Shown: positions 11,382 to 15,314 of the stretch, in pieces
Layout of the letters: the number at the start of each line of letters is the position of its first letter
Numbering within the stretch: position 1 is the first letter of the stretch
Source: Pontixanthobacter aquaemixtae
Lineage (GTDB): Bacteria; Pseudomonadota; Alphaproteobacteria; Sphingomonadales; Sphingomonadaceae
Assembly (NCBI RefSeq): GCF_009827395.1
Contig: NZ_WTYX01000002.1
Location: 496,001-560,000, forward strand
Direction: 5' to 3'
Length of the DNA stretch: 64,000 nt
The notes under the pieces: model-generated
What the model saw: only the letters and a program-made list of their open reading frames with translations
Told to the model about the DNA's origin: nothing
Databases searched by the model: none
Program-made: the position numbers and the translations under genes

Positions 11382-12371
11382 ATGAGCCAGACACTTTCCA
11401 TCACCGTCAACGGCGAAAGCCGCCAATCCACTGCTAGCACCATTGCCGCGCTTGTGCAGGAACTCGATCTCGATCCGGCGAAGGTCGCGGTTGAACGCAA
11501 TAGCGAAATCGTACCGCGTTCGACGCTTGCAGAAGTTGCATTGGCCGACGGGGATGTCCTGGAGATCGTCCATTTCGTCGGCGGAGGCGACCATGCGGGT
11601 GAAAGTGACAGCTGGGAAGTTGCCGGGCAACGCTTCACGTCACGGCTGATTGTTGGTACCGGCAAATACAAGGATTTCGAACAGAACGCCGCCGCGGTTG
11701 AGGCTTCTGGCGCCGAAATCGTCACGGTCGCTGTACGCCGGGTCAACGTCTCCGATCCGAAAGCGCCAATGCTGACCGACTATATCGACCCCAAGAAGAT
11801 TACTTATCTTCCCAATACCGCGGGCTGTTTCACCGCCGATGAGGCGATCCGGACTTTGCGCTTGGCGCGCGAAGCGGGCGGCTGGGAACTGGTCAAGCTC
11901 GAGGTTCTTGGCGAAGCGCGCACGCTTTACCCCGATATGCGCGAAACACTTCAAGCCACCGAAACGTTGGCCAAAGAAGGCTTCAAGCCCATGGTCTATT
12001 GTGTCGACGATCCAATCGCGGCGAAGCAGTTGGAGGAAGCAGGCGCGGTCGCGGTGATGCCGCTGGGCGCACCGATCGGATCGGGCCTTGGCATCCAAAA
12101 CCGCGTTACCATCAGGCTTATCGTAGAAGGTGCAAATGTCCCTGTTCTGGTCGATGCCGGCGTCGGCACGGCATCAGACGCAGCGGTCGGTATGGAACTC
12201 GGTTGCGACGGCATTCTGATGAACACCGCCATTGCCGAAGCAAAAGATCCACTGAAAATGGCGCATGCGATGAAGCTCGCGGTGCAAGCAGGCCGACACG
12301 CTTATCTTTCCGGCCGGATGGGTACGCGCAAATATGCTGACCCGAGCAGCCCGCTGGCCGGGCTTATTTGA
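11382..12371 (+). CDS. thiG: ThiS-ThiG fusion: sulfur carrier protein and thiazole synthase
   Basis: Residues 1-69 are a ubiquitin-like ThiS ('[20 protein letters not shown]', ending EIVHFVGGG at 67-69). Residues ~78-329 are ThiG, a TIM barrel: '[15 protein letters not shown]', '[20 protein letters not shown]', the catalytic-lysine segment '[17 protein letters not shown]' and phosphate-binding '[19 protein letters not shown]'. ThiG condenses deoxyxylulose phosphate, dehydroglycine and ThiS-thiocarboxylate into the thiazole of thiamine. ThiS normally needs a free C-terminal Gly-Gly, which is internal here; there is no in-frame ATG, GTG or TTG just after it that would give a separate ThiG. Other thi genes are not in the window. 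Confidence 0.93.
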
Positions 12372-12374
12372 TTC

Positions 12375-12662
12375 GACCCTCATTCGTCGGGCGGAATGCG
12401 TCCGAATTCGTTGGCTACCTCCCACCAGATCGGGCGGCCGCGCAGGTGCCCTTTGGCCGCCTACGCCTTCGGCTTCGACTCCGGCCTTGCGATCCGTCCG
12501 TTGGCGGATCGGACCATTCCAAGCCTTCAATCTTTGTCATGAACCTTGGTCGCGGCAGCCAGAGGGCGACTGCCCGACGGCCGGTCAGGCCGGAAGCCTA
12601 AGGGAGCGGATGCGACCGCCGGCGCTTGAGGCCAAACAAACAGACTCCGGCGACTGAGGGTC
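12375..12662. repeat. Structured repeat, left copy (inverted relative to 13270-13495)
   Basis: This 288-base element starts 3 bases after the thiG stop. It begins with GACCCTCATTCGTCGG and ends with CCGGCGACTGAGGGTC, which are 14/16 terminal inverted repeats. Internal hairpins include GATCCG/CGGATC (12491-12510), GGCGGCC/GGCCGCC (12433-12461) and CGGCC-GGTCA-GGCCG (12578-12592). Unpaired blocks TTGGTCGCGGCAGCCAGAG and GCCGGCGCTTGAGGC are shared word for word with the right copy. It contains no credible gene. It could be a MITE-like element or encode a structured RNA. Confidence 0.85.
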
Positions 12663-12741
12663 TAAACAAACAAACCACCTCCTAACCCAAAATTAACCAT
12701 GTTGCGCGACAACCTCTCTCACAACAGAGGGGCATATTCTC

Positions 12742-13269
12742 ATGGCGACTACTAGCACTGCATCGCTGACAATTGCTGAAATGCGCGAGTTTGCGAATTT
12801 CGATGCGGCAGAGCAACGCTACATCCGGCGCAGTCTTGATATTGGTCTGGGCCGCCAGGACGCGTTCAAGCTTTGGGCACGCGATGCGGCGGAGAATGCG
12901 GCTATACGCAGCCAGTATGTCGCCTACCAAGAGCTCAAAACACTGCGCGAGAGCATTCCGACGGCCACCGGCTTCGACGCCATCGAAGGCTTCATCGGCA
13001 AGCTCACCCGCGTTGCTGCGTTCGATCTGGCACAGGAACGGCTCGGTTGTTTTTCATCATTCCGCTTCTTGTATGAACGCCTGCTCGGCGCAGATGCGCG
13101 TCCGTGGCTACCCAGCGCGTTCTGTGCTGCCGCCGCACTTCCGCAAATCAGGCCAGAGCGTCGCAAGATGCTGCTGCAAAGTTTGAGCGAAGCTGCTGCC
13201 ACTGCGCCCGGCTGGTCCGACGCGCGCCCAAGTTTCTTTCCTGAGTTTATCGAGAAAGAAGCCGCATAG
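12742..13269 (+). CDS. Hypothetical protein between two inverted structured repeats
   Basis: The 175-aa product is predicted mostly helical, with no membrane segment or signal peptide ('AEMREFANFDAAEQRYIRRS', 'GRQDAFKLWARDAAENAAIR'). A good ribosome site (AGAGGGG) precedes the ATG and codon use looks like that of neighbouring core genes, so it is real. I do not recognise a family. Its stop codon abuts the right-hand repeat and the left-hand repeat ends about 80 bases before its start, so the gene is neatly bracketed, as a cargo gene or the gap between two insertions would be. Confidence 0.7.
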   Translation: MATTSTASLTIAEMREFANFDAAEQRYIRRSLDIGLGRQDAFKLWARDAAENAAIRSQYVAYQELKTLRESIPTATGFDAIEGFIGKLTRVAAFDLAQERLGCFSSFRFLYERLLGADARPWLPSAFCAAAALPQIRPERRKMLLQSLSEAAATAPGWSDARPSFFPEFIEKEAA

Positions 13270-13495
13270 CTTGTTTTGCCTCAAGCGCCGGCGCTCGTGT
13301 CCGCTCGCTTAGGCTTTCGCGCTAACCGCGCGTCGCCCGGCCGGGCTCTGGCTGCCGCGACCAAGAACAGGCACTAAACTGATGACTTGGAATGGACCGG
13401 TCCGCGTCGAGCGGACTGCAAGCGCGACCGCGCGCCCGAGCTTATGCGAGGTAGCCAAGGAATGCGGATGCATTCCGCCCGGCGACTGAGGGTCC
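13270..13495. repeat. Structured repeat, right copy (inverted)
   Basis: The reverse complement of this segment aligns along its whole length with 12375-12635: it begins GGACCCTCAGTCGCCGGG and ends GCCGGCGCTTGAGGC then AAAACAAG. Hairpins occupy the same places with different sequences: GTCCGC/GCGGAC (13400-13416), GCGCG/CGCGC (13422-13435), CGCGC/GCGCG (13318-13332, loop GGTTA read on the minus strand) and GGAATGC/GCATTCC (13459-13476). The second terminal inverted repeat of the left copy is absent here. It fills the gap up to the acyl-CoA synthetase stop. Confidence 0.85.
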
Positions 13496-13508
13496 AAAAC
13501 AAAAGATC

Positions 13509-15314
13509 CTAACTCCGATACAAGCCGTCGATTCTTTCCCGATAGCGATCGCGGATCTTGTGACGGCGGATTTTCATGCTCGGTGTCATTTCCTCGTTTT
13601 CGACCGTGAATGCTTCGTCCGCGAAGGCAAATTGGCGGACCTTTTCGGTAACCGACACTTCGTTATTCACACGCGCGACCGCTTCGCTCACGGCCTTGCG
13701 AAATTCGGGTAAGCCTTGCAACTCGGCCAGATCAAACTTGATATCTTTGGCCCGCGCCCATTCGAGCGCCCATTCCGCGTCGGGCACGATCAGTCCGACC
13801 ACATAAGGCCGCTGATCGCCAGAAATCATCGCTTGAGCAATCTCTTCCTGCAGCGTCAGCATGCCCTCAATCTTCTGAGGCGCGACATTGTCGCCCTTGT
13901 CGTTGACGATCATGTCTTTCTTGCGGTCGGTAATTTTGATCCGGCCCTTTTCATCGAGATGGCCGATATCGCCGGTATGCAGCCAGCCATCTTGCAGTGC
14001 CTTGTCGGTTTCGGCCTGGTTCTGCCAATAACCGCGCATCACCAGCTCGCCTTTGACGAGAATCTCTCCATCTTCCGCAATCTTCACATCGACTCCGCGC
14101 ATTGGCGGGCCAACCGTATCCATCGCAATGCCAGTTTTGGGGCGGTTGCAACTGATAACCGGCCCCGCTTCTGTCTGGCCGTAGCCTTGCAGCATCGTCA
14201 GGCCCATTGCTTCGAAGAAGATCCCGACATCCGGATTGAGCGGCGCGCCGCCAGAAACCATCGCTTTGATCCGCCCGCCGAATTTCGCGCGGATTTTGGG
14301 GCGTAGCGCTTTCTCCAGAATGAAGTTCATCGGCCTGTCGCGCAGACGCATTTTGCCATTGGATTTGTGCTCGCCAATAGAGAGCGCCCGCTCCATCATA
14401 TAATTGGCAGCTTTGCCCTGCTGGCTGACCTGTTTCATGATCCGCGTGCGCAGCACTTCGAATAGGCGCGGGACCACCACCATGATCGTCGGGCGGGTTT
14501 CTTCGATATTGCTGGCCAGTTTGTCCAAGCCTTGCGCGTAATAAATCTCTGCGCCAGCGCCGATTGGCAGATATTGCCCGCCCGAATGTTCATAGGCGTG
14601 GCTCAATGGCAGGAAGCTGAGGAACCGCTCATCATCTTCCAGACCAAAGTCGCTGGCGAGGATTTCTGCAGCGCCCGCGACATTGCACAGGATCGATCCA
14701 TGGTGTTGCATGACCCCGCGCGGCGCGCCGCCGGTGCCGCTGGTATAAATGATGCACGCCGTCTGATCACGGGAGACTTTGGCCATGCGCGCATCCACGG
14801 CCTTGCGCGCCTCGGCGGCATCGCCAACCAGCATCGATGCCCAGCTGCGGCATGTCAGATCGCCCGACTGGAAAGTGCGAATTGGGTCAATCGGGATAAT
14901 GTGGTCGGCAGTACCGGTGCGCATGATTGCAGGCAGCAACGGCTGCAACAGTTTCTCCTTGGAGACGACGACGGCCTTTGATCCCGAATTGTCAAGGATG
15001 TGCGCGTGGTCCCGTTCGGTATTGGTAATATAGGTGGGCACAGAAATGCAGCCCGCCGCCATGATTGCCAGATCGGCAATGCACCATTCGGGCCGGTTCT
15101 CCGACACAAGCATGACCCGGTCGCCATCGCCCAGGCCTATCTTGCGAAGGTTTTCGGCGAGCAAGCACACGCGATTGGCGGTTTCGGCCCAGCTGATGGT
15201 CTGCCATTCGCCATCGATCTTCGCGCCCAGGAATGGCGCGGAACCTTTCAGATCGGCGCGATTCAAAAATAGTTCGACCAGATTGTTGGCCGTATCAATG
15301 TCCGCTAGCTGCAA
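13509..15314 (-). CDS. Long-chain acyl-CoA synthetase (AMP-binding)
   Basis: The 601-aa product is an ANL-superfamily enzyme that activates fatty acids to acyl-CoA through an acyl-adenylate. The ATP-binding loop is 'YTSGTGGAPRG' at residues 190-200 (usually TSGTTGxPKG, so Thr and Lys are replaced by Gly and Arg). Further motifs are 'GYGQTEAGPV', 'GWLHTGDIGHLDEKGRIKITDRKKD' in parts, and the C-terminal Lys region 'TPSMKIRRHKIRDRY'. Length and the 'FLSFLPLSHAYEHSGG' segment match the bacterial FadD/ACSL group related to FAA1. It is a single gene; the gap to the next gene is about 95 bases. Confidence 0.93.
   Translation of the reverse strand: MQLADIDTANNLVELFLNRADLKGSAPFLGAKIDGEWQTISWAETANRVCLLAENLRKIGLGDGDRVMLVSENRPEWCIADLAIMAAGCISVPTYITNTERDHAHILDNSGSKAVVVSKEKLLQPLLPAIMRTGTADHIIPIDPIRTFQSGDLTCRSWASMLVGDAAEARKAVDARMAKVSRDQTACIIYTSGTGGAPRGVMQHHGSILCNVAGAAEILASDFGLEDDERFLSFLPLSHAYEHSGGQYLPIGAGAEIYYAQGLDKLASNIEETRPTIMVVVPRLFEVLRTRIMKQVSQQGKAANYMMERALSIGEHKSNGKMRLRDRPMNFILEKALRPKIRAKFGGRIKAMVSGGAPLNPDVGIFFEAMGLTMLQGYGQTEAGPVISCNRPKTGIAMDTVGPPMRGVDVKIAEDGEILVKGELVMRGYWQNQAETDKALQDGWLHTGDIGHLDEKGRIKITDRKKDMIVNDKGDNVAPQKIEGMLTLQEEIAQAMISGDQRPYVVGLIVPDAEWALEWARAKDIKFDLAELQGLPEFRKAVSEAVARVNNEVSVTEKVRQFAFADEAFTVENEEMTPSMKIRRHKIRDRYRERIDGLYRS

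Follow-up and report, generated by a model that had tools for sequence, protein, structure and literature searches.

The rhizobial RIME and ABC elements are mosaic palindromic elements found in alphaproteobacterial intergenic DNA. Alphaproteobacteria also carry the CGTC REPs, which the cited part of their published description (Di Nocera 2013, PMC3733652) presents as mostly head-to-head dimers with no dedicated transposase known; they start with CGTC (or TGTC, CCTC), have stems of 8–9 bp in which the first two pairs are A-T, and mostly bear a CCA tail. RAYTs are reported from gammaproteobacteria only in the section of PMC2817692 drawn on here, and the IS1031 group of IS5, going by an excerpt of PMC12016507, prefers TNA and produces a 3-bp duplication.

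Here we analyse a pair of inverted repeats in Pontixanthobacter aquaemixtae (G000, genome of 2.98 Mb), located in a 64-kb stretch of DNA that we call the window (C2:496001-560000). These repeats are very probably insertions of non-autonomous mobile DNA, that is, a MITE made of folded palindromes and organised like BIMEs or REPINs. As in BIMEs and REPINs, short palindromic modules are paired in inverted orientation, occur in many intergenic copies near gene 3′ ends and form heterodimers of two types, but here three hairpins make up each module of ~90 nt instead of one hairpin of 20–40 bp, the GTAG tag is absent (the head being CTCARNCGCCGG), the own genome lacks a RAYT, and the solo form of the element makes TNA duplications. 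CGTC REPs are likewise alphaproteobacterial palindromes that form dimers and have no identified transposase; the head CCCTCARNCGCCGG, the 7-bp stem and the NTCC loop nevertheless set our modules apart from the cited part of the CGTC REP description, and a CCTC string in the module head does not stand beside a CGTC-REP-like stem (alignment A1). Br-REP1/2 of Bradyrhizobium are other sequences, as far as the part of PMC5082802 used here describes them. IS5/IS1031-type MITEs are similarly small and non-coding, with terminal inverted repeats and exact 3-bp TNA duplications (shared by the solo form), but the present elements hold an internal hairpin array with exchangeable stems, and neither the commonest protein families next to the modules nor 400 kb of G102, an alphaproteobacterium of another family, yielded an IS1031-type transposase with matching ends. 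RIME and ABC elements are alike in general description, as intergenic mosaic palindromes.

No Rfam family matched the elements in the window above its gathering score, nor the region at a loose threshold, and at 10 other loci the only Rfam match was a tRNA. A match to a described family would have counted against the sequence-only reading that first drew attention to the locus, and as far as the search went there is none. Among the papers listed in literature searches, judged by titles and abstract openings, none names a similar family. We regard the hairpin modules as a new family and a variation on the MITE/BIME type, to which the dimer form belongs through its shared modules and empty sites, not through target duplications of its own.

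Results

Two inverted dimers in the window

The two copies match as inverted repeats in three ungapped blocks, of 95 nt (82%, 12545–12639 / 13271–13365), 65 nt (85%, 12372–12436 / 13433–13497) and 26 nt (85%, 12504–12529 / 13380–13405). The sequence-only reading had aligned the copies over their full length; the inverted relationship stands, but some parts cannot be aligned. It had also described hairpins that keep their place while their stem sequence changes, and by eye the hairpin pairs that it named are indeed present; the single-strand blocks TTGGTCGCGGCAGCCAGAG and GCCGGCGCTTGAGGC do not differ between the copies. The 16-bp terminal inverted repeat assigned to the left copy matches at 14 of 16 positions, but it makes use of an extra truncated head in tandem, which adjoins the head of the module itself (GCCGGCGCTTGAGGC; Table 1).

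A covariance model built without the own genome (R1, see below) finds exactly four strong modules in the window, two per copy, with E-values from 2e-21 to 2e-7, the next window match being at E 0.36. Since the two matches in each copy are in inverted orientation, each copy is an inverted dimer of the ~90-nt module. HP1 of the left copy has decayed (GGAATGC/GAATTCG, 5 of 7 pairs kept). Folding z-scores are −4.13 for the left copy and −1.65 for the right, for which 12 of 200 shuffles folded equally well. The pair is beyond chance, the left element alone matching 43 places in the own genome (BLAST pieces).

Table 1 Features of the two elements and their borders in the window.
Feature	Position	Strand	Evidence
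Left element: inverted dimer, class I module facing out at the left end and class II module at the right, followed by an extra truncated head	12375..12662	+	
Left element, module 1, class I type, HP1 decayed	12379..12472	+	Covariance model R1, 43.5 bits, E 4e-10
Left element, variable hairpin HP4, CGATCCG...CGGATCG	12490..12511	+	
Left element, module 2, class II, tandem T.C/C.T mismatch GGTCGC/GCTCCC	12543..12630	-	R1, 39.7 bits, E 4e-9
Block TTGGTCGCGGCAGCCAGAG, same in both copies, inner tail of class II module	12546..12564	+	
Additional truncated head GACCCTCAGTCGCCGG, in tandem with the end of the module itself	12647..12662	-	
Stop codon TAG of the 175-aa gene, left edge of right element	13267..13269	+	
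Right element with A/T-rich ends, inverted relative to the left, between the stops of two convergent genes	13270..13508	-	
Right element, class II module	13280..13367	+	R1, 33.5 bits, E 2e-7
Right element, class I module, intact	13401..13490	-	R1, 85.8 bits, E 2e-21
Right element, HP1: 7-bp stem GGAATGC, loop ATCC	13459..13476	-	
Stop codon of the AMP-binding ligase, right edge of right element	13509..13511	-	

The copies do bracket a single 175-aa gene, as had been noted, but this gene does not belong with them: it is native, and the order thiG, 175-aa gene, AMP-binding ligase is kept in the genus wherever the assembly covers it. The 175-aa gene (12742–13269) has no Pfam match at E 0.01. Upstream, 11382–12371 encodes one 329-aa protein in which ThiS and ThiG domains are fused (PF02597, PF05690).

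Module architecture

The order of parts within the ~90-nt module is fixed: a constant head (CCCTCARNCGCCGG; CCCTCARNCGCCGGGC in the shared module alignment), HP1 with a 7-bp stem and an NTCC loop, TTGGCT, HP2 and HP3, after which a fourth hairpin is usually present in the aligned modules. HP1 is fully paired in class I modules, and in class II it contains a kept tandem T.C/C.T mismatch (GGTCGC/GCTCCC). HP2 (columns 43–44 with 63–64 of alignment A1) is mostly either fully paired or interrupted by the same tandem mismatch (30 of 102 modules), which looks like a kept feature of both HP2 and class II HP1.

In Pontixanthobacter, two modules are mostly arranged head-outward as an inverted dimer with ~200–310 bp between the outer heads. 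Thirteen outward-facing groups of this width account for 31 of the 48 heads in the own genome, the other 17 having no exact partner, and in G016 an outward-facing pair of module matches is found at 17 of the 20 loci fetched. Solo modules predominate in other taxa, where, with taxon groups assigned manually for this count and for that of target duplications below, an inverted head follows within 400 bp downstream of 11/53 modules from Sphingomonadales, 3/54 from Rhodospirillales and Acetobacteraceae, and 3/12 unplaced modules (upstream: 2/52, 2/52 and 0/12, respectively). The dimer ends, seen by eye as TTTGTTT..CCTCA / TGAGG..AAACAAA in many copies from Pontixanthobacter and from G016, are unlike those of the solo form, which has the terminal inverted repeats TACCAA/TTGGTA in G102 and is 127–146 bp long there. 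Both forms are too short to encode a transposase, and in some copies interior segments are inverted.

Smaller and larger arrangements of the same parts also occur. At the G004 site of L013, a minimal form (L294) consists of one hairpin, GGGACGC-GGAT-GCGTCCC, between two outward heads, less than 90 bp in total. Tandem module arrays with a period of ~100–136 bp are present in G018:C24, G615:C33, L168, L095 and L162, some of their copies being near-identical.

Spread and copy number

The head motif CTCARNCGCCGG occurs 48 times in the own genome, compared to three occurrences of a reversed-motif control. Scanning one genome per species with a pattern that leaves the HP1 stem free (CGCCGGGC-N6-C-NTCC-G-N6-TTGGCT) gave at least 124 matches in at least 115 stretches. 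All of the matches listed that could be placed to class or lower are alphaproteobacterial, L105 being placed to Proteobacteria only; the taxa among the matches listed include Erythrobacteraceae, Sphingomonadaceae and Acetobacteraceae (Roseomonas and allies), and the genera Magnetospirillum, Azospirillum, Telmatospirillum and Terasakiella. A similar exact pattern is present in 7 of 385 evenly drawn alphaproteobacterial genomes, including the own genome.

For the covariance model, L089 (inside a gene, with a non-complementary stem), modules cut by contig ends and modules identical over 90 nt were dropped before alignment, leaving 119, and R1 was built from the 102 of these that were aligned, all from other alphaproteobacteria. 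In a search of 60 genomes with R1, under filters that lose weak matches, 27 matched, counting the own genome; 36 modules were found in the latter, 48 and 51 in the congeners G004 and G005, and 45 in G016. Across the phylum, 10 of 249 genomes match, again including the own genome, and all ten are alphaproteobacterial. Within the Alphaproteobacteria the family has a patchy distribution over several orders, with members in Sphingomonadales, Rhodospirillales and Acetobacteraceae, and is not universal. No match to the window copy was found in plasmid or phage collections, and none to the G102 element in plasmids; for a Falsiroseomonas module, plasmids of Niveispirillum and Azospirillum gave two partial matches, covering 32% and 27% of the query.

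Presence and absence at Pontixanthobacter sites

Comparison with congeners shows that the right window site is empty in G001, G004, G005 and G007; in G006 it holds a separate solo insertion, in G003 ~500 bp of other DNA, and in G002 the assembly is broken. The left site is without an element in G001, G003, G006 and G007, and by coordinates also in G002; G004 and G005 have elements with other hairpins there. An empty site could be mimicked by the precise loss of an old insertion. By eye, in G001, G004 and G005, where the right site is empty, the two convergent genes have overlapping stops, and at the right site of the window both stops are present, one on either side of the element, an arrangement that is consistent with a short duplication. 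An exact target duplication was sought at the two window sites and at three further Pontixanthobacter sites, and was not established at these.

Other repeats were noticed as well. L282 and L285 (in G004 and G007, at the site of L022) are a dimer resembling the CGTC type of REP, CGTCATTCCCGC...GCGGGGATGACG, separate from the hairpin-module family and positioned directly after the gene end where the own genome has a hairpin-module element. L014:2606-2689 is another short interspersed repeat, parts of which also match G004 at eight further places and G007 at one.

TNA duplications and stop codons in relatives

G102 contains many near-identical elements of ~145 bp, which include the module and have the ends TACCAA...TTGGTA; the best 40 of 221 candidates were taken as long matches, with 16 copies of at least 110 bp in 400 kb. 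When copies were found by their ends regardless of flanks, 23 of 23 had identical 3-bp flanks, always TNA (TTA 14, TAA 5, TGA 2, TCA 2). Shuffling the right flanks left a mean of 10 and a maximum of 18 of the 23 identical, a high control score because TTA is so common. The 400-kb sample, which partly overlaps the 23-copy sample, shows the TNA duplication at 12 of its 16 copies. Beyond G102, 120 modules were inspected, with contig-end and duplicate modules left out: TACC/GGTA ends with a TNA duplication occur at 6 of 53 modules from named Rhodospirillales and Acetobacteraceae (displaced controls, 0), and at 0 of 67 others, mostly from Sphingomonadales. Target duplications were demonstrated for the solo form only, in G102 and in genomes of Rhodospirillales and Acetobacteraceae.

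TNA corresponds to TAA or TGA on one strand or the other. At 19 of 29 sites the duplicated triplet is the stop of a reading frame of at least 100 codons (21 of 29 at 60 codons or more), compared to a background of 13.7% of all TNA sites (24.9% at 60 codons); of intergenic TNA sites, 12.4% are stops of called genes (p about 1e-10). In Pontixanthobacter and G016, a stop of this kind lies within 80 bp upstream of 72 of 122 outer heads against 14.1% of control positions, a lenient control because these positions are mostly inside genes. The distance from stop to outer head is most commonly 13–16 nt (16 of 122).

The near-identical G102 copies with intact duplications indicate recent activity. Several G102 contigs (C5, C7, C22, C113 and others) start or finish in the 145-bp element, which thus seems to break the assembly.

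Gene context

With genes called by a simple codon-bias script, which makes the context counts approximate, only 3 of 124 modules lie inside called genes, one of which (L089) is probably a chance match. The remainder are in tandem gaps (70), convergent gaps (31), divergent gaps (11) or at contig edges (9). Measured against module-free gaps of at least 100 bp (147 tandem, 33 convergent, 75 divergent), divergent gaps are depleted (11/112 vs 75/255, p 3e-5) and convergent gaps enriched (31/112 vs 33/255, p 1e-3). Relative to tandem neighbour genes, modules are oriented 38 one way and 32 the other, showing no strand preference (p 0.55).

Covariation and replacement of stems

Among 69 distinct matches to the free-stem pattern, 48 have a perfect 6/6 stem, compared to a mean of 1.65 and a maximum of 8 when arms are shuffled (2000 trials), with 36 different stems. 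In the alignment of 102 modules, 90.6% of cells in the three helices pair, as opposed to 65.3% when shuffled and 31–52% when slid, and 409 cells are changed on both sides versus 157 in shuffles. The covariation score of 0.562, against 0.159 for shuffles, was reached in 0 of 500 of them; 13 pairs show a both-side change at all, which is not above the shuffled value of 12.2. RNAalifold recovered HP1 and HP3, and did not recover HP2.

The manner in which the stems vary is distinctive. In HP1, whose five varying pairs show two-sided changes in 231 cells and one-sided changes in 3, G-U pairs make up 3 of 714 cells (HP2, 9/601; HP3, 12/408), significantly fewer than the 20 of 302 in tRNAs at the same loci (Fisher p 2e-8 for HP1). 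G-U compared to A-C counts are 3 vs 9 in HP1, 9 vs 4 in HP2 and 12 vs 6 in HP3; as HP1 leans one way, and HP2 and HP3 the opposite way, no RNA strand can be chosen.

We aligned 13 groups of orthologous sites among congeners. In three of them (e, f and j: L020/L244/L260, L009/L236 and L008/L247) a whole hairpin is replaced between kept flanking linkers, as judged by eye; in the other 10, the elements are too different to tell hairpin replacement from independent insertions. Some stems recur among copies of the own genome (GCGAGCC seven times, GGAATGC six times), which indicates exchange or common descent. The stem pattern fits exchanged or templated DNA-level palindromes better than it fits stepwise RNA evolution.

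Search for the mobilising enzyme

The Y1 transposase domain (PF01797) was found in 0 proteins of the own genome, in 1 of 8 genus genomes including the own, and in 9 of 40 genomes overall. A survey of 150 of 154 neighbour proteins gave 141 Pfam families, of which the 25 commonest included no transposase. A search of 400 kb of G102 for an autonomous partner found no long element with the same ends. From the 3-bp TNA duplication, which is typical of the IS1031 group, we infer a DDE transposase acting in trans.

Discussion

The sequence-only reading left two possibilities, a folded MITE or a new structured RNA family. Empty sites, copies throughout the genome and TNA duplications in a relative bear out the former, and the latter is not favoured: the empty sites, the TNA duplications and the rebuilt stops lead us to prefer a mobile palindrome of the MITE/BIME kind over a new regulatory RNA. 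A family of 3′-UTR elements or small RNAs, maintained by selection on how the RNA folds and copied to many places in the genome, would fit the very strong covariation in three helices, the conserved loops and linkers, the preference for gene 3′ ends and the strong folding of the left copy. The changes in the hairpins had been taken as the mark of selection on RNA or cruciform structure, and their covariation was upheld far above background in the alignment of 102 modules, but the RNA interpretation does not sit well with G-U pairs that are rare next to tRNAs at the same loci or with stems swapped wholesale at some sites. Neither does the lack of strand preference towards tandem neighbours, the presence and absence at the window sites among congeners, the weak folding of the right copy relative to its shuffles, or the decay of HP1 in the left copy; we consider an RNA family quite improbable. 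Alternatively, perfect but changing stems may be an unselected by-product of template switching within palindromes, the repeats being inert relics. Template switching can make multibase compensatory changes in stems (PMC8794818) and homogenise the arms of inverted repeats with inversion of the spacer (PMC8604942), as stated in the parts of these papers drawn on here, and both the preponderance of two-sided changes in HP1 and the inverted interiors are as such precedents would have it. Against inert relics, stem length, the NTCC loop and the linkers are fixed across distant alphaproteobacteria (HP1 length and parts of the loop and linker being set by the search pattern), certain stems are found repeatedly within one genome, and G102 has near-identical copies with their duplications intact. 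We regard this alternative as unlikely, though it deserves to be taken seriously.

Two further alternatives concern the way in which the elements would move. Inverted dimers of hairpin modules at gene ends resemble REPINs and BIMEs, so that a REPIN system with a RAYT (Y1 HUH) transposase as its mover comes to mind; however, Y1_Tnp is missing from the own genome and occurs in 1 of 8 genus genomes, the GTAG tag is absent, and the solo form makes 3-bp target duplications, which HUH transposases are not known to make. This candidate, rejected for its missing Y1_Tnp, is very improbable indeed. That exactly one gene lies between the inverted copies could suggest a single composite element carrying the 175-aa gene, yet genomes of the genus that lack one or both elements still have the gene between thiG and the ligase, and a composite transposon is discarded by synteny and empty sites to the point of being scarcely conceivable.

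Under the preferred reading of mobile, non-autonomous palindromes, a transposase supplied in trans, probably of the DDE type and duplicating TNA, would recognise the ends of the element. Exchange between copies, together with template switching within palindromes, would produce the perfect stems with changing sequence; we infer that both are at work, and they would also account for the inverted interiors. Insertions at gene ends would be tolerated where the duplication restores the stop codon, and mRNA ends would be affected only secondarily, if at all.

A bolder proposal, which we put forward tentatively and think doubtful as it stands, is that this is class-wide mobile DNA recognised by its folded shape (hairpin order, stem length, loops and linkers), with stems swapped as cassettes and with insertion at TNA rebuilding stops. 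On this proposal, since TNA triplets are the stop codons TAA and TGA read on one strand or the other, their duplication would rebuild the stop and leave the host gene unharmed. If true, a family recognised by shape would represent transposition by the reading of structure, with harmlessness built in. The replacement of stems as whole units at some orthologous places offers a natural record of how stems evolve without broken intermediates. Insertion into stop codons of the TNA type, together with their duplication, gives a simple reason why such elements accumulate harmlessly at gene ends. The family also carries a warning, in that mobile palindromes can yield covariation of textbook strength that does not imply a functional RNA.
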